A stretch of 16,891 nt of DNA from positions 1-16,891 of the forward strand of contig CAJPPE010000007.1 in NCBI GenBank assembly GCA_905372345.1, given 5' to 3'. Source of the DNA: an uncultured Treponema sp. GTDB taxonomy: Bacteria > Spirochaetota > Spirochaetia > Treponematales > Treponemataceae. Shown one piece after another: positions 3,711 through 16,840 of the stretch; positions within the stretch are counted from its first letter, which is position 1; every line of letters starts with the position of its first letter. Under the pieces are notes generated by a model. It was not told the origin of the DNA. It did not search any database and worked only from the letters and a program-made list of their open reading frames with translations. A program made the translations under genes and the position numbers.

Positions 3711-4313
3711 CTAGCTTACAACCTCATTTATTTCACTCAATAAGGCATTAAAATCTATGGGCTTTCTAAAGAAGGAATCAGCACCCAAATCTTTCATCTG
3801 CTTTTCTAAAGATTCGTCATCCAGTCCTGTAATAACAATTATATAAGGCTGTCCGAAAAAAGGATCGGTTTTTATTTTTTTGCATATTTCCTTGCCGTTA
3901 ACTCCGGGAAGGTCTATATCCAAAATAACAAAGCCCGGTTTATGCTTTACAAGCTGAGTACCTGCATCAAAGCCGTCGAAGGACTTGTATACAGTTAAAT
4001 TAGGAAGGTTTTTATTAAAAAATGAAGCAATAGCCTCATTTAAAACAACGTCATCGTCTATAATTATGATAGAATTCCAATGAGCATCTTCCACTGAATC
4101 CTGTAATTCGGGAGGAACCTTCATTCCTCTTTCTTTTATAAAGAAGAGCAAGTCTTCATAATATACCCTATATTGTCCGCCCGGCGTATTAAACGCTTTT
4201 AAATAGCCGTTTCTAATCCAGTTAATGGCTGTCTGATTTACAACTCCGCAGATATTTGCAACTTCAAGAGCGGAGTACATTTTAACTCGTCTTCTACTTT
4301 CGCTTTTACCCAT
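3711..4313 (-). CDS. Response regulator with N-terminal excisionase/MerR-type HTH and C-terminal receiver domain
   Basis: In numbering from the ATG chosen here, residues about 12-58 form an excisionase/BldC-like helix-turn-helix: SALEVANICGV, then TAINWIRNGYLKA and the wing GGQYRVYYEDLLFFI. Residues about 80-200 form a CheY-like receiver with the acidic pocket DDD (86-88), phospho-acceptor Asp132 in FVILD, Thr162 and Lys184. It is probably a phosphorylation-controlled DNA-binding protein. HTH first and receiver second is the reverse of the usual response-regulator order. No histidine kinase gene is in the window. The frame extends upstream to a TTG at 4331, but the only AAGG-like ribosome binding site lies too close to the TTG and too far from the ATG at 4313. 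A further ATG at 4280, just before the HTH, is also possible. The gene follows recX closely. Confidence 0.85.
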   Translation of the reverse strand: MGKSESRRRVKMYSALEVANICGVVNQTAINWIRNGYLKAFNTPGGQYRVYYEDLLFFIKERGMKVPPELQDSVEDAHWNSIIIIDDDVVLNEAIASFFNKNLPNLTVYKSFDGFDAGTQLVKHKPGFVILDIDLPGVNGKEICKKIKTDPFFGQPYIIVITGLDDESLEKQMKDLGADSFFRKPIDFNALLSEINEVVS

Positions 4314-4334
4314 AGTATACGAATGAAACAAACC

Positions 4335-10026: not shown

Positions 10027-10701
10027 TTATTTTCCACTCGGTAAAAACGGAATCAAAGATTGAGCAACCGCATGAATAGGCATTGTCTGTACAATTATTT
10101 TTCCGGGACCGGTAACTTTCGTGTTAAATAAGCCCTCCCCGCCGAAAAGGATATTTTTTACACCTTTTATCATCTCTACTTCCATCTTACAGGTTTCTTC
10201 CATTGCTGCAAGATATCCCGTATCCAAAAGCATTGTTTCACCGGCACCCAAAGTATACTCTACTGCAGAACCGTCAATTTCAAGAAAAACCGTTCCGTTG
10301 CCTGAAAGTTTTTGCATTATAAAACCTTCACCGCCGAAAAATCCTGCACCCAGCTTTTTCTGAAAATGAATCGAAAGGTCAACACCTTCAGTTGAAGCTA
10401 AAAAAGCGGTTTTTTGTGCAATCAAGGAAGAACCCGAAGTGATTTCAAACGCTTTTATAGCACCGGGGAACCTTGAAGCAAAAGATATTTCTCCATCGGT
10501 AGTTGCCGTGTATTTGTTTAAAAATAAACTTTCTCCCGAAAACATCCTTCCGAGGGCTTTACCGACTCCTCCGGCAGATGTTTCCATAGAAATCCCTGAA
10601 CTCATCCAAGCCATTCCGCCGGATTGAGTTATCATTTTCTCCCCTGCTCTAAGTTTACAAACAACGGCAGGAAAAGCATCTCCAATAATTTTGTATTCCA
10701 T
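10027..10701 (-). CDS. AIM24/TIGR00266-family protein, 224 aa
   Basis: The protein matches the AIM24-like family of bacterial all-beta proteins of 220-260 residues. It has the N-terminal AVVCKLRAGEKMITQSGGM (about 12-30), the MSSGISMETSAGGVGKALGRM region typical of the family (33-53), and then repeated beta-strand units such as GFIMQKLSGNGTVFLEIDG and GAGETMLLDTGYLAAM. The mitochondrial relative AIM24 is linked to inner-membrane organisation; the bacterial function is not known. No signal peptide or membrane segment is seen, so it is probably cytoplasmic. AAGGAG lies 6 bases before ATG 10701. The gene stands alone between hairpins at 10736-10797 and 9978-10002, so it is probably a separate or semi-separate transcription unit. 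I see no convincing promoter hexamers in the short upstream gap. Confidence 0.85.
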   Translation of the reverse strand: MEYKIIGDAFPAVVCKLRAGEKMITQSGGMAWMSSGISMETSAGGVGKALGRMFSGESLFLNKYTATTDGEISFASRFPGAIKAFEITSGSSLIAQKTAFLASTEGVDLSIHFQKKLGAGFFGGEGFIMQKLSGNGTVFLEIDGSAVEYTLGAGETMLLDTGYLAAMEETCKMEVEMIKGVKNILFGGEGLFNTKVTGPGKIIVQTMPIHAVAQSLIPFLPSGK

Positions 10702-10803: not shown

Positions 10804-13668
10804 TTACTTAGATTTTTTTGCAGTCTTCTTCTTGGCAGAAGAAGTCTTTTTAGCCGGTGCGGACTTTGCCTTTACAGCCTTTTTTTCAGTTGCCTTCTTT
10901 ACAGCGGTTTTAGGCTTTGCTTTTGCAGTTTTTGCAGCTCCTTTTTTTTCGACAGCTTTAGGGCTTTTTGCCGGCTTTGCTGCAGCAGAGTTAGGTATGG
11001 GCTTAATCTTGGGTTCAAGCTTTATTCCTGCTTTTTCCGCATTCTCCAGTTCAACCTGTGCAATAGAAAGAAGAGCAATAGGTACTGAATATGACGAACA
11101 CGAAACATAGTTCAATCCGGCTTCCATACAGAAGCGTACGTTTTCCGGTCTTGCACCATGTTCACCGCAAAGACCTAAGTGCAAATCGGGGCGGGTAAGT
11201 TTACCGCGCTGAATTGCTATTTCGATTAAGTCCCTTACGCGGCTGTCAAGCACGGCAAAGGGGTTTCCATCGATAAGGTCGTACATCGTGTAGTCAGGCA
11301 TAAAGCTGTTAAAGTCATCTCTCGAAAGACCTAACGTTGTTTGAGTCAGGTCGTTGGTTCCGAAAGAGAAGAACTCTGCATATTTTGCAATCTCGTCAGC
11401 ACTTAAGGCAGAAGCCGGAAGCTCAACCATAGTTCCAACCTTGTAATCAAGGTCTCCGCCTTTTACGGCAGCTTTTACCTCTTCGGCAATAGAAGCTATA
11501 CCGGCATAGGTGTGTCCCTCAATTTTCTTTCCGTAAATGATTTGCTTTAATTCTCTAAAGTTCATTATAAGAGGAATCATAATTTCAGGCTTTACATCCA
11601 CTTTTTCTTTTTTTAGCTTGTATGCGGCTTCAAAAATAGCCCTTATCTGCATAGCATAAATTTCAGGATAGGTTATTGCAATTCGGCAGCCTCGGTGTCC
11701 AAGCATGGGGTTAATTTCAGAAAGTTTTTCAATTTCAGCAGCTAAATCCTTTTTGTTTACCTTTTTCTTTTGAGTTGCCAAATATTTTACAAAACCGTCA
11801 AGCTCAGCATCATTATGAGGCAAGAATTCATGCAGAGGAGCATCCAATAAGCGGATAGTAACCTCTTTACCGTCCATAGCTTTAAAGATACCGTAGAAAT
11901 CTTCCGTTTGTAGTTTTTGAAGTTTATCAAGAACCTTTTTTCTTTCAGTCTCGCTTGGAGCTAAAATCATTTCGCGGAAAGAATTGATTCTTTTTTCATT
12001 AAAGAACATGTGTTCGGTTCGGCATAAGCCTATACCATCGGCACCGAAGCCCAAGGCAAGCTGTGCATCACGAGGACTATCGGCATTGGCCCTTACATGG
12101 AAGTCGGACAAGAAACCTTTTGCAAGGCTTATAAAGTCTAAAAGGCCTGAGGTTTTAGGATCGGGTTCAATCAGGTTTGCTTCACCGAAATAAACGGTAG
12201 AATCCCCATAATAAGGAACATTGAGCGTAATATAATCGCCTTCGTTTATAGTAACACCTTCAATAACGGCCTTTTTTCCGCTTATTTTCATATCGGGACG
12301 TACAAGAGATATTTTGCCGTACTGTCGGGCAACAACGGAAGCATGGGCTGAATAACCACCTTCATTCGATATAACACCGGTAGAAACTTCAATACCCTTT
12401 ACGTCTCCTGCGTAGGTTGCAGGCATACATAGAATACATCTTGTGTCCATGCCCTGGAGTTTTGCAGCTCTTTGAGCTTCAATAAGCGAGTCGGCTGTAA
12501 AATATACCCTTCCTACAGCAGCTCCCGGAGCTCCTGCAATACCGCCTTTTGAAGACTTTAAGCCTTTTGTACTCATAATGTCGATTACAGGATGTAAAAT
12601 CTCGTTTAACTGACCGGGTTTAACGGCACGTACAACATACTCGGCATCTACAATCTTTCTGTTGTATAAATCAAGCAAAATCTGAACCATTGAGATGGTG
12701 CTCTTAGCTTCAACCGATTTTTGTTCAATAAGCCAAAGTCTTCCGGCTTCAATAGTAAATCGAATATTGCGGATATCTTTTGTATAATCTTCAAGCTGCC
12801 ATGCAATCTTCTGTAGGTGCTTTAAATATTCCGGCTTTATTGAATTTATATCCTTACCTTTAGCATCAACTTCATTGAATTTTTCGGCAAAGAACTGACC
12901 TTGCAATTTTTTCTCGCCGTTTACAATGTTGCGGCTGAAGAAAGAACCTGAGTATGAATCTTTTCCGTAGTTTCCATAAACCATGGGTTGAATCAAAAGA
13001 GCCGTGTCATGATCCGTGTCTTCTTCAAGGGTTAAAAGTTTACCGATAAGGCGGATTGATTCTTCAAGCTGAACTTTGCAATCATCAAAAAAGCGTGACG
13101 GCAAAAGTCCGGCATATTTGTCCATAATAGCACCGGGTTTTAGGCTGATTTTAGGCATTTTCATAGTACTTTTGATTTCTTTTAATGCCCGCTCTAAATC
13201 CTTAACTTTTGTTTCGTTTTTTTCCAATTCTTCTATTTTTAGAACAACGATCAGAATACCGTTAAGCAAAAACAGAACTTCACTTGCCGCAAAATCTTCA
13301 CCAACATTTTCTTGGAATCCTATTACCGTATCTTTGGTAAGACCGAAGTTATGCAGGGTCGGATAACTTGTTATAAGCATATTGGGAGAAATAACCAATT
13401 TTAAAAGCAATGGAGATTCATCATCACCGTATGTTTTCTTTACTTCCGTACCGAATTTGCTTAAATATGGGGCTATTTCGGAGTATATATTTGCATCACC
13501 GATATCTTGTACAACTGAAGCATCAATTATGATACCCGGCAAGATGGGAAGTTTAAGCTCTGCAAATTCGTTTGCCTGTCTTCCTCGGATACCCAATAAG
13601 TTTTTATCAACTTTTTTGCCGACGGTTTCTTTACTGTTAAAAAAATGTATATTGTTCGATATTTTCAC
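10804..13668 (-). CDS. ppdK: Pyruvate phosphate dikinase homologue with divergent ATP-grasp domain and Lys-rich tail, 954 aa
   Basis: PPDK interconverts PEP, AMP and PPi with pyruvate, ATP and phosphate using a swinging phospho-histidine. The central domain has GGYSAHASVVAR with His442 in the phospho-His position. The C-terminal barrel keeps all active-site residues I know: Arg550 (GLCRTEHMFF), Arg606 (IRLLDAPLHEF), Glu749 (GTMVELP), Asn772/Asp773 (FGTNDLTQ) and Cys834 (LCGEHG). The N-terminal ATP-grasp domain is recognisable but poor. Positions equivalent to Clostridium symbiosum K22, R92, D321, E323 and Q335 (recalled) appear as R28, V92, N301, R303 and E315. The glycine loop GTGVAFTRNP is replaced by YSGSFFSRNI. 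Residues about 888-954 form a Lys/Ala/Pro-rich tail beyond the normal end. The GTG start (13668) has AAGGAG 6 bases upstream, overlapping the previous stop. The family is certain; true PPDK activity is doubtful. Confidence 0.9.
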   Translation of the reverse strand: MKISNNIHFFNSKETVGKKVDKNLLGIRGRQANEFAELKLPILPGIIIDASVVQDIGDANIYSEIAPYLSKFGTEVKKTYGDDESPLLLKLVISPNMLITSYPTLHNFGLTKDTVIGFQENVGEDFAASEVLFLLNGILIVVLKIEELEKNETKVKDLERALKEIKSTMKMPKISLKPGAIMDKYAGLLPSRFFDDCKVQLEESIRLIGKLLTLEEDTDHDTALLIQPMVYGNYGKDSYSGSFFSRNIVNGEKKLQGQFFAEKFNEVDAKGKDINSIKPEYLKHLQKIAWQLEDYTKDIRNIRFTIEAGRLWLIEQKSVEAKSTISMVQILLDLYNRKIVDAEYVVRAVKPGQLNEILHPVIDIMSTKGLKSSKGGIAGAPGAAVGRVYFTADSLIEAQRAAKLQGMDTRCILCMPATYAGDVKGIEVSTGVISNEGGYSAHASVVARQYGKISLVRPDMKISGKKAVIEGVTINEGDYITLNVPYYGDSTVYFGEANLIEPDPKTSGLLDFISLAKGFLSDFHVRANADSPRDAQLALGFGADGIGLCRTEHMFFNEKRINSFREMILAPSETERKKVLDKLQKLQTEDFYGIFKAMDGKEVTIRLLDAPLHEFLPHNDAELDGFVKYLATQKKKVNKKDLAAEIEKLSEINPMLGHRGCRIAITYPEIYAMQIRAIFEAAYKLKKEKVDVKPEIMIPLIMNFRELKQIIYGKKIEGHTYAGIASIAEEVKAAVKGGDLDYKVGTMVELPASALSADEIAKYAEFFSFGTNDLTQTTLGLSRDDFNSFMPDYTMYDLIDGNPFAVLDSRVRDLIEIAIQRGKLTRPDLHLGLCGEHGARPENVRFCMEAGLNYVSCSSYSVPIALLSIAQVELENAEKAGIKLEPKIKPIPNSAAAKPAKSPKAVEKKGAAKTAKAKPKTAVKKATEKKAVKAKSAPAKKTSSAKKKTAKKSK

Positions 13669-13674
13669 TTTTTA

Positions 13675-13680
13675 CTCCTT
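13675..13680 (-). promoter_or_regulatory. Ribosome binding site for the ppdK homologue (GTG start)
   Basis: AAGGAG on the minus strand overlaps the TAA stop of the upstream gene and lies 6 bases before GTG 13668. It supports a GTG start and translational coupling of the two genes. Confidence 0.85.
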
Positions 13681-14707
13681 AAAATAGATTTAAAACTGTA
13701 TCAGGCGAGCCGCGCAAAAAAGCTTCAAACATGGGGCTGGCACCTTGCCTAAAATATTTTGACAACTTTGAAAGATCGTTTATTTCTTGTGCAGAAACGG
13801 CAAACTGGATTGTACTTCCATGCTTAACCTTTCCCCACTTAAATAAGGTATTTATATCTACAATACGCTCTCCGTCATAGTAAACCATAACTTCGGCATC
13901 TTGATATTTTGCAGTATAACTTCGGATAATTCTTTTCCATGCTTCAACGTTTCCGTTATGGAAGAGCTCGTTTGAAACAGGAACAGAAACAAGCTGAGAC
14001 ATCTTCTTGGGGCCTGTAGCTATGGCAGATGGGCGTTCCAAGTGTGAAGGTGCGGAACTTGCTTGAACCTTTGCAGCAGGAGCAGATGGGGCAGGAGCTT
14101 TTCTACCCGGCTTTTTGGCAACAGCTTTTTTAACTTTTACAGGAGCAGCCTTTTTGGGCTCAACATATACAAAGGGACCTGTTTTTACCGATGCAGGAAC
14201 CGAGCACGCTTTCTTTTCAAACAGTTTTTTAATGGCAGAAATAACGGAATTTGCAAGAGCTGCATCAACTGTACCTCTGTCTTGTTTTCCTACAAAAATA
14301 AGCAAAAGCTCATTTTTTCTAAATCCTTGAATAACTTGGGCAGCCGCAGGATTTTTTGGGTTTACAACAATAAAACCCAAATCAGGGTGATCGTAGCCGA
14401 AAACCAAATCAATACCTGTCCATTTGGCAAGCTCTGCAACAAAAGATGAAGCATCATCTAAAATAAATTTCAAATTTTCAGATACAACTTTATAATTCCA
14501 TTTATCAAGAAGAGAAACAGAAAGGATTGATCTAACTTGTTCAGGTTTTATCGTTTGTTCCCTTATCATAAGATTTATCTTGTCGGCAACATTCTCTTTA
14601 GGATTGCAATCATCTAAAATCTCGATAACAGACTGAATATGTTTAACCGAAGTGTTAAAATCAGTCTTTTTAGCAAGCGGAACAAAAAAATTAGTCATAT
14701 TAACCAT
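13679..14707 (-). CDS. Treponemal protein with C-terminal HPr-like domain and basic Ala/Pro linker, 342 aa
   Basis: Three regions can be seen. Residues 1-165 form a mixed alpha/beta domain I do not recognise. Residues about 180-232 are a low-complexity linker rich in Lys, Ala and Pro (EPKKAAPVKVKKAVAKK and onward). Residues about 241-323 resemble the PTS phosphocarrier HPr. An N-E-L-F-H-N-G-N-V-E-A-W stretch aligns with HPr NRLGLHARPAALF, putting His250 near catalytic His15. VMVYYDGERIVD aligns with the HPr beta strand, and KVKHGSTIQF with the family's VKQGSEITI. The Arg-Pro after His15 is absent, so carrier activity is uncertain. The gene lies between cfpA and the ppdK homologue, as TP0747 does in T. 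pallidum by my memory. I chose ATG 14707 because AAGGAG sits 5 bases upstream. A TTG at 14728 would add 7 residues. Confidence 0.8.
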   Translation of the reverse strand: MVNMTNFFVPLAKKTDFNTSVKHIQSVIEILDDCNPKENVADKINLMIREQTIKPEQVRSILSVSLLDKWNYKVVSENLKFILDDASSFVAELAKWTGIDLVFGYDHPDLGFIVVNPKNPAAAQVIQGFRKNELLLIFVGKQDRGTVDAALANSVISAIKKLFEKKACSVPASVKTGPFVYVEPKKAAPVKVKKAVAKKPGRKAPAPSAPAAKVQASSAPSHLERPSAIATGPKKMSQLVSVPVSNELFHNGNVEAWKRIIRSYTAKYQDAEVMVYYDGERIVDINTLFKWGKVKHGSTIQFAVSAQEINDLSKLSKYFRQGASPMFEAFLRGSPDTVLNLF

Positions 14708-14728: not shown

Positions 14729-14760
14729 AAGCCCCCGAAACGGGGTTGTTCCAGGGGCTT
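14729..14760 (-). terminator. GC-rich hairpin between cfpA and the HPr-like gene (terminator or attenuator)
   Basis: An outer stem AAGCCCC/GGGGCTT (14729-14735 with 14754-14760) and an inner stem CCCCG-TTT-CGGGG (14733-14745) share bases and exclude each other. On the minus strand the structure ends in GGGGGCTTTTGCTT, a short T-rich tract, just before the next ribosome binding site. It lies about 35 bases after the cfpA stop. A partial terminator would let cfpA be expressed more strongly than the two genes behind it. Confidence 0.6.
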
Positions 14761-14794: not shown

Positions 14795-16840
14795 TTAGAT
14801 TTCTTTAATTCCTGACTTAGCCTTTCGTCTGCCTCGTCCAGAATCAACAGAGCCTGCTTTTTTTGCCTTAACAGCACCTCTCTTGGAGCCTCGGCGTTTA
14901 GCAGGAGCACTTACAGCCTCAGCTGCGGGAGCTTCAATGGCAGGGGTGCTGTTCAACATATCGATAAACTGAGAGCGGCCGGAAGCCTCACCGGCTTTAG
15001 GATCATCCTCGGCAGCTGCAAAGCTTTGTGCAATATCGGCACGAACTGTGGATCGTCGGCGGCTGAATGAAGCAAATGCAGCATCGGCAAAGCCTTTTGA
15101 TACACCGTGCAAGAATTCGTTGAGCACGTTAGCCATTCCGTCCAATGTAGCCTTCTTTCTCTTGATTGATGTGATATCAAGATCAAGCAAAAGACCGGGC
15201 TGAATGTGGAAGGGGTTGATTAAATAATCGAATTTGTTGAATTCGGCTTCTAAGAAAGAAAGTCTGTCTTCGATAACGCGTCTTTCGATAGGATACTGAT
15301 AATCATATAAATCCTTCATTCTCTTGCGCATAATAATAATCTTCTTGCGGAGCTTATCCTTTTCGTAGACATAGGTTCTATTCATCTTTTCAACTTCTGT
15401 TTCGGGAGGCTTAACAAAGGAGATTTCATCCCAAACATGAGCCGTATCTTCGTATACGGGTTCACCTGAGGGCTCTTTGTACTTTCGCTTGATGAATTTC
15501 TTGTACCTATCTGCCAAATCATCGAAGTCTGAGAGCTTTGTCATAAACTTGGATTTGTCATAATTAGCTCTTACTACGTCCCACAAGTGCTGAATTTCCG
15601 TTTCGAAAGAGCTCATCATTACTTCATAAGCCTGTCTTTCTGCGATTAATTGAGCATTGTCATAGTACTTGAGGCGGATTTGATATCTTTCATCAGGAAG
15701 ATTGGAAATATCGGTGTCATCATATTCGCGCAAGATAAGCTCACGGGCATTCTTTAAGTTTTCGATGTACTGATACCCCATCTTTGATGTATCAAGAATT
15801 GAGGTAATCGAGTTAATAGCTGTGTTAAATCCGCGATTTCTGATGTTTTCAAGGTCGATAATCTTTTTGATGTTTTCTCTGATGTTAAGCTGATCAAAGG
15901 TCTCAGGATCAATTTCAGCTCTCAAATTGTTGATTCTTTCCATGAGCTGCTTTGATACTACATCGTATCTCTTGCTCTTTGGATTCTCAACATCATCATC
16001 AGTTATATCCGATACCTTATCAATTTTTGTGAAAATAATTTCACCATCCGATAACTCATCTAAGCCCTGATCGATTCTCCGATCTTTAACTTTTTCGATT
16101 TCCTTATCGATAACATCCATAAAGTGATTCGACAAGAGGTCCTTGATAAGATATTCAACAGTTGCCTGATACTGGAAGATAGGACTGATTAATTCGGAAT
16201 CAAGGATGTTTACTGAAAGTTTAACATCAGTTACAGTCTTAGGCTTGTAAAGGCTGTCTTTAAAAGCACATTTTACGATTGAGTAAGCGTTTTCACCTCG
16301 AACAAATGCACCTACGTCCGTCTTCTGCCTTAACAATGAGTTTGTTAAGGTTTCCAAATCGTTAACACCGCGCTGTACGTGGCCCTGTAAGTGTCCGTAC
16401 ATGTTTACAATCGACTTTTCAATTTCGCCTGTGTTAAACTTGTCAGCACCTCCGACTGCATCAAGAAGGGTAGCGATTTCTTTCGGAGTATAGCGGTCTA
16501 AAACCTTCATTTCCTCCCGATCGATAAATCCGCGAACCTTTTTGAGCATTTCATCTTCAGCCGTTACCATGTATCGGTTGAACATGTTCTGGTAGTTCTG
16601 GTTAAAGTAGTTATACAGCTTTTCCTTAACACCGCCCATTACGTCCAATCTTTCAAGGACTTCTTTGGGAAGTTTTGTGGTCAAGTGGTGTAACACTTTA
16701 TTTGTTTCTTCTTCAATCAGCTGATTTACTTCTTTCTGCTGATCTCGATAGTCTTGAGCCAACGAGTTTCTTGAACCGACAGCACTGGGCTTTTCGGGAT
16801 GGAACACATTAGGGCTCTGTGGTAGATCTAAATTTGCCAT
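14795..16840 (-). CDS. cfpA: Cytoplasmic filament protein A
   Basis: CfpA is the subunit of the ribbon-like cytoplasmic filaments that run along the inside of treponemal cells beneath the periplasmic flagella. Loss of the filaments is known to affect cell division and chain formation in T. denticola. The protein is 681 residues, matching the roughly 78-kDa family, and begins [20 protein letters not shown] as I recall for treponemal CfpA. It is highly charged and mostly helical with long coiled-coil-prone stretches (about 25-125 and 290-580). There is no signal peptide or membrane segment. The last 37 or so residues are Lys/Arg/Ala-rich ([18 protein letters not shown] and onward). The ATG at 16840 has AAGGAG 8 bases upstream. 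The 51 bases before it in the window are AT-rich and may hold a -10 box, but no complete promoter can be shown. A hairpin separates it from the following gene. Confidence 0.96.

Follow-up and report, generated by a model that had tools for sequence, protein, structure and literature searches.

A candidate phosphoenolpyruvate-driven phosphohistidine relay in spirochaetes, comprising a dikinase paralogue without key ATP-site residues and a protein with predicted HPr-like folds, encoded beside the cytoplasmic filament gene cfpA

We analysed a 16,891-nucleotide stretch of DNA from an uncultured Treponema sp. (positions 1 to 16,891 of contig CAJPPE010000007.1, assembly GCA_905372345.1; hereafter the window), in which three genes follow one another on the minus strand: cfpA, encoding cytoplasmic filament protein A; the gene for a 342-residue protein here labelled 747h, whose position matches that of the gene flanked by TP0746 and TP0748 in T. 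pallidum; and the gene for PPDK2, a paralogue of pyruvate phosphate dikinase (PPDK). The chances appear to us about even that 747h and PPDK2 form a phosphohistidine relay driven by phosphoenolpyruvate (PEP), in which phosphate would pass from PEP to His442 of PPDK2 and on to His250 of 747h, and that this relay is tied to the CfpA filament. An initial annotation of the window had proposed a relay from PEP through a histidine to an HPr-like protein, a reading that the results below partly support; it did not mention cfpA, the gene that travels with the pair. The close spacing of the pair, which had suggested coupled translation, was confirmed: PPDK2 starts with a GTG at 13668, 10 nt past the TAA stop of 747h, and its ribosome-binding site, AAGGAG, overlaps that stop codon.

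PPDK2 is homologous to maize PPDK (PDB 1vbg) over its whole length (511 bits), and it reaches neither the equivalog cut-off for PPDK (TIGR01828; 652 versus 843 bits) nor the equivalog-domain cut-off for Enzyme I of the phosphotransferase system, or PTS (TIGR01417; 98.9 versus 341.7 bits). Its PPDK_N match, at 19 bits, lies under the cut-off of 27. Residues were compared between 75 PPDK2 sequences of at least 800 residues (of 110, the others being cut by locus ends or split into separate frames) and 20 canonical PPDKs of relatives, with residues numbered as in the Clostridium symbiosum enzyme. In all 75, Lys22 is replaced by Arg, Arg92 by Val or Ile, Gly94 by Ser and Gln335 by Glu or Asp; Glu323 is replaced by Arg in 74 and by His in one, and Arg337 is kept in 58, with Lys in its place in 16 and His in the remaining one. 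The swivel histidine, His455, equivalent to His442 of PPDK2, is kept in 75/75, as are Arg561, Arg617, Glu745, Asn768 and Asp769 of the PEP site, and the catalytic Cys831 is kept in 74, with one gap. The 20 canonical enzymes all retain the compared ATP-site residues, the swivel His and the PEP-site residues, except in the Cys831 column (Cys in 12, Ala in 7, Ser in 1). Among PPDK2 sequences from more distant families (13 aligned, 12 of them with the N-terminal part), Lys22, Arg92, Gly94 and Glu323 are lost likewise, and Cys831 is Cys in 9/13. Judged from these alignments, PPDK2 keeps the residues of the PEP-to-His half-reaction, whereas key residues for the ATP half are gone, so that the earlier description of the neighbour as ATP-site-defective is borne out. 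In a midpoint-rooted tree of 78 sequences, 58 PPDK2 (45 of the 75 near sequences and the 13 distant ones) and the 20 canonical enzymes (PPDK1) separate without intruders, with node support of 0.61 for PPDK2 and 1.0 for PPDK1. Passages of a study of HpeHI, CreHI and PpsAB report that Ala in place of the residue preceding the swivel His left activity (PMC12167813), which matters here because Ala directly precedes this His in the 75 PPDK2 compared. Among individual genomes, the PPDK2 gene of Treponema vincentii OMZ 806 is divided between two open frames that overlap (our locus L035, 6024-8710), through either disruption of the gene or an error in sequencing, and genome G320 has a shortened PPDK2 match (G and L numbers are our handles for genomes and loci).

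Loss of the ATP half goes further in one genus. In G049, a 587-residue open frame adjoining 747h begins just ahead of the swivel domain and thus carries no ATP-grasp domain; it retains an intact His loop (GGYSAHAS) together with six intact motifs of the PEP site. A PPDK2 search of 118 genomes of the same family, in which most full-length relatives have open frames of about 880–940 residues, found two further examples without the domain: G360 (548 residues, all motifs recovered by pattern) and G393 (556 residues, with the His loop GGFSAHAS and the PEP motifs read by eye). In both, 747h lies upstream and carries the motif FHNGN. The domain is therefore missing in three loci (L168, L194 and L195) from three genomes of one genus; a fourth genome of this genus, G422 (76% complete), gave no PPDK2 match. 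This count leaves out G384 (L197), which is cut by a contig end, and G333 (L196, 3224-4906), whose divergent PPDK2-like protein of about 560–569 residues has a swivel His and PEP barrel, no ATP-grasp domain and altered PEP-site motifs, with no 747h inside the 7 kb fetched. In its domain content, the pair in this one lineage thus corresponds to the catalytic parts of Enzyme I together with an HPr-like protein.

The candidate acceptor, 747h, is predicted to carry two HPr-like folds, A and B. In an AlphaFold2 model, domain B, with its fold at residues 237-329, has the element order strand-helix-strand-strand-helix-strand-helix with high confidence, which is the open-faced fold of HPr, and the top structure matches of the modelled domain are HPr. 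His250 directly precedes a helix (residues 251-267) as His15 of HPr precedes helix A, in keeping with the placement of His250 near His15 in the initial annotation. Domain A has no His at the His15-equivalent position. The N-terminal part had been taken for an output domain of unknown type; it consists mostly of this second predicted fold. Between the two folds lies a linker in which the predicted local distance difference test score (pLDDT) falls below 50 at residues 210-226.

Domain B is the most conserved part of 747h. We aligned the proteins of 110 fetched loci with that of the window, and clustering of these 111 sequences at 90% identity left 87. His250 is identical in 87/87, as are residues 246-255 (NELFHNGNVE) and 288-295 (LFKWGKVK), and FHNGN is kept in 20/20 loci of more distant families obtained from the phylum search; in these distant loci the two longer stretches differ at individual positions (L168, for instance, reads NDLFHNGN and LFQWGKVK). 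The conservation of His250 across relatives, on which the relay reading had been made to depend, is thus without exception. Other histidines are conserved less strictly (His107 in 86/87, His296 in 84/87, His23 in 75/87). Mean column identity is 80% over the last 110 residues (78 sequences) and 31% over the N-terminal 182 residues (90 sequences, a somewhat broader set).

Several results limit the reading of 747h as an HPr relative. Pfam, NCBIfam and PDB-sequence searches with the whole protein gave no HPr match, 78 relatives searched against NCBIfam gave only scattered weak matches, and a full-length 747h profile found nothing useful among PDB sequences. With hhalign, the C-terminal domain aligned to 28 HPr sequences of relatives with a probability of 0.4% and the N-terminal domain to HPr with 2.8%; the low effective diversity of the C-domain alignment (Neff 1.75) weakens these tests. 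The HARP signature of HPr, with its Arg17, is absent from 747h, which has FHNGN instead in 87/87; when His250 is set on His15, Arg17-Pro18 of HPr correspond to Gly252-Asn253 in all 87. In the HPr set used for this comparison, 28 of 30 loci of relatives fit a pattern that required HAR and two had no match, so that the invariance of HAR is partly due to selection. Sequence profiles do not support homology between 747h and HPr. Because there is no profile match and Gly252-Asn253 replace Arg17-Pro18, we do not file 747h as a member of the HPr family; domain B is predicted to have both the fold and the histidine of HPr. Of the C-terminal HPr pattern put forward earlier, the fold and the histidine therefore stand as predictions, and the sequence-level link and Arg17 do not. 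Nor did hhalign give sequence evidence for an internal duplication (domain A versus domain B, 0.6%). The best match of the C-domain profile in PDB sequences, an RxLR effector repeat (E 0.0003), was short, lay around one helix and was taken as chance. A search for candidate stand-alone copies of the C-domain returned 249 short proteins; among the 120 listed, many lie on short contigs and some are named partial.

The tie to the filament rests on the distribution of the genes. Among 296 genomes of the phylum, 747h was found in 106, CfpA in 109 and PPDK2 in 104, with PPDK2 presence defined as a match of at least 640 bits (the next match scored 535 bits). All three occur in 100 genomes and any of the three in 112. 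Of the 12 genomes with a partial set, 11 are less than 90% complete; the exception, G174 (93%), has CfpA alone. G101 (L171), whose divergent PPDK2-like neighbour falls under the cut, was counted as a PPDK2 miss. Fisher p values for co-occurrence are all below 1e-64; they ignore kinship and are not to be read as probabilities. More telling than these values is that the genes still co-occur in genomes where they are not linked. G109, G115 and G137 each carry all three, on three separate contigs, and the 11 kb fetched around 747h in G109 and G115 contains neither of its partners; in G049 CfpA (with one stop within the reported frame) lies about 158 kb from the pair, and in several genomes of one family PPDK2 is kilobases from 747h. 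Of the 110 loci fetched first, 103 have the order cfpA, 747h, PPDK2 on one strand; some genomes are represented twice among these loci, and in each of the other seven one gene is missing from the sequence fetched, several of the seven lying at the end of a contig. An ordinary HPr is also present in 56 of 59 relatives, including 48/48 of the better assemblies. In T. denticola, a cfpA mutant loses its filaments and shows chromosome condensation and filamentation, according to passages of PMC3398590. In the window, the PPDK2 tail, the 747h linker and the CfpA tail each contain a basic segment rich in Lys, Ala and Pro, resembling histone H1 in appearance; in other families the PPDK2 frame is often shorter. 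With such segments the three proteins could bind a shared polyanion or one another.

In the relay that we propose, PPDK2 without ATP-site residues would take the phosphate of PEP onto its swivel His442 and hand it to the invariant His250 of predicted domain B. A PEP-to-His relay fits because the ATP site of PPDK2 is degenerate and its ATP-grasp domain is absent in one genus. The output would act on, or be anchored to, the CfpA filament ribbon, where we place it on the grounds that genomes tend to retain or lose the three genes as a set; PEP/pyruvate status might, for example, switch the binding of 747h to CfpA. Domain A, which has no such His, and the helical bundle would serve as docking modules. 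A possible though doubtful alternative extends that last role to the whole protein, with both HPr-like domains as non-phosphorylated docking modules, 747h as an adaptor for the PPDK2 swivel domain or for CfpA, and His250 needed for binding or structure. The His-less domain A with its predicted HPr fold and the absence of Arg17 from domain B favour this, and there is a precedent in Crh, an HPr homologue without the active His. What speaks for a transferred phosphate is that His250 never varies (87/87 and 20/20) and that PPDK2 keeps the full set of residues for the PEP-to-His half-reaction, which would be needless in a pure scaffold.

We consider it unlikely that PPDK2 is still a metabolic enzyme, turning PEP into pyruvate and passing the phosphate to water, pyrophosphate or a small acceptor at a remodelled N-domain, with 747h as an accessory subunit. 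The N-domain is not simply decaying, having invariants of its own (Lys90, Ser94 and His106 in 75/75); G027, a T. pallidum-like genome, has neither pyruvate kinase nor another PPDK; and TP0746 is treated as a glycolytic PPDK in passages of PMC10013896. Yet PPDK2 has lost the residues that contact metal and nucleotide, one genus does without the N-domain, and many carriers also have a canonical PPDK, while seven of the eight carriers tested have pyruvate kinase. A purely structural, non-catalytic role of 747h and PPDK2 as elements that bridge or anchor the CfpA ribbon would agree with the co-occurrence with CfpA and with the basic segments in all three proteins of the window. The title of a 2004 tomography paper by Izard refers to components that bridge and anchor the filaments. 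Such a role is very improbable in our view, given that the tested PEP-site residues are kept in 75/75 PPDK2. The commonest weak Pfam matches of 78 C-domains were Tom6 (25 members, best E 0.0018) and ubiquitin (24 members, best E 0.0022), and the latter would suit a beta-grasp, ubiquitin-like domain in place of an HPr-like one; we set this aside as extremely unlikely in view of the high-confidence order of strands and helices in the AlphaFold2 model and the HPr structures at the top of its matches.

The proposed relay shares parts with several known systems. Like Enzyme I of the PTS, PPDK2 has a swivel-His domain and a PEP barrel, which are its only domains in G049, G360 and G393; unlike Enzyme I, it is a dikinase homologue, and we know of no HPr-docking subdomain in it. 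747h resembles HPr in its predicted fold and in having a His where helix A begins, and differs from it in having two such folds and a helical bundle, no Arg17 and no detectable shared profile. With pyruvate phosphate dikinase (TIGR01828; PDB 1vbg, 1dik) PPDK2 shares homology over its whole length, the His and the PEP site, and it differs in the lost key ATP-site residues and a score under the equivalog cut-off. Passages of PMC12167813 describe HpeHI, CreHI and PpsAB as splitting swivel-His chemistry over two proteins; these systems are ATP-dependent and act on phenolics, and the second component of HpeHI is an ATP-grasp protein rather than the HPr-like partner seen here. The cytoplasmic filament of Treponema enters through CfpA, whose gene is upstream of the pair and co-occurs with it. 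Literature searches, from whose coverage most subscription papers are missing, found no publication on TP0747 and no published link of CfpA to PPDK2 or 747h; those on dikinase and HPr, on HPr-like proteins with PEP synthase or phosphohistidine, on Treponema with HPr, PTS or filaments, and on filament bridging or anchoring returned no report of such a system in the titles and abstract openings of the matches listed. A term search of a review of the PEP-pyruvate node (PMC8100219) found neither Treponema nor spirochaete.

Features of the window are collected below. The protein matches point to a treponeme of the T. denticola group: 747h shares up to 93% identity with a Treponema sp. OMZ 799 protein, and 94% with its counterpart in the nearest genome searched. 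Of 6649 candidates, 3176 are homologues of 747h at E ≤ 1e-3, and among the matches listed the precomputed domain PF27497 is assigned to such homologues. The translation of 747h contains the segments NELFHNGNVEAW and VKHGSTIQF, the latter as the initial annotation had read it. The hairpin between cfpA and 747h could possibly set different expression of the filament and the pair; in a terminator scan it was not above chance (1 found versus 1.5 expected from shuffles), and the sigma-70 and terminator scan of the window gave nothing exceeding shuffled sequences.

Table 1. Coordinates of features in the window, with the basis for each.
Feature	Position	Strand	Basis or remark
cfpA, cytoplasmic filament protein A	14795-16840	minus	NCBIfam NF040882, 1224 bits (cut-off 500)
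CfpA tail, basic segment	14795-15016	minus	Lys plus Arg 22%
GC hairpin, small (5 bp), then T-rich sequence	14733-14745	minus	between cfpA and 747h
747h, 342 residues	13679-14707	minus	open reading frame, ATG start
747h residues 1-70, N-terminal helical bundle	14498-14707	minus	AlphaFold2 secondary structure
747h residues 72-167, predicted HPr-like fold A, no His at His15 position	14207-14494	minus	AlphaFold2 model
747h residues 168-235, Lys/Ala/Pro-rich linker, partly low confidence	14003-14206	minus	pLDDT, composition
747h linker, basic segment (residues 181-233)	14009-14167	minus	Lys plus Arg 21%
747h residues 236-330, predicted HPr-like fold B	13718-14002	minus	AlphaFold2 model, structure matches
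747h His250 codon (CAT), candidate phospho-acceptor	13960-13958	minus	invariant in relatives
PPDK2, pyruvate phosphate dikinase paralogue, 954 residues	10804-13668	minus	PF02896 and PF00391 over cut-off
PPDK2 residues 1-360, degenerate ATP-grasp domain, boundary approximate	12589-13668	minus	residue comparison
PPDK2 His442 codon, swivel phospho-His	12343-12345	minus	kept in 75/75
PPDK2 residues 515-876, PEP-binding barrel, PEP-site residues intact	11041-12126	minus	domain match, residues
PPDK2 tail, basic segment	10804-11040	minus	Lys plus Arg 35%
AIM24 / TIGR00266 family protein	10027-10701	minus	just downstream of PPDK2
N-terminal MerR-like helix-turn-helix fused to receiver-like domain	3711-4331	minus	by eye

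The finding bears most directly on the syphilis spirochaete. We infer that G027 is T. pallidum from the coordinates of TP0746 and the length of TP0748 given in parts of PMC10013896 and PMC3373638, respectively. This genome has a CfpA frame of 678 residues and a PPDK2 gene at 810725-813376 of contig 1 (L181) with the same ATP-site losses. A PF00224 search that detected pyruvate kinase in the seven other genomes tested and in 14/14 controls found none in G027, and no second PPDK was found there, leaving PPDK2 as its sole dikinase; a PEP carboxykinase is present and gives PEP an alternative outlet. Passages of PMC10013896 and PMC8525777 describe TP0746 as a PPDK that yields ATP or serves glycolysis, the latter treating ppdk as a glycolytic gene. 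The gene set of G027 calls that annotation into question, and with it the last step of glycolysis as usually drawn for T. pallidum. More tentatively, and with more doubt than confidence, we suggest that spirochaetes may have a second, PTS-independent PEP phosphorelay, in which a PPDK turned Enzyme-I-like donor and a partner with tandem HPr folds would couple PEP/pyruvate status to the CfpA cytoskeleton, making the PPDK of the syphilis spirochaete a signalling enzyme. If true, this would be a metabolic phosphorelay that came together separately from the PTS and is linked genetically to a filament of the bacterial cytoskeleton, and 747h and PPDK2 provide two named candidate partners of the treponemal cytoplasmic filament.
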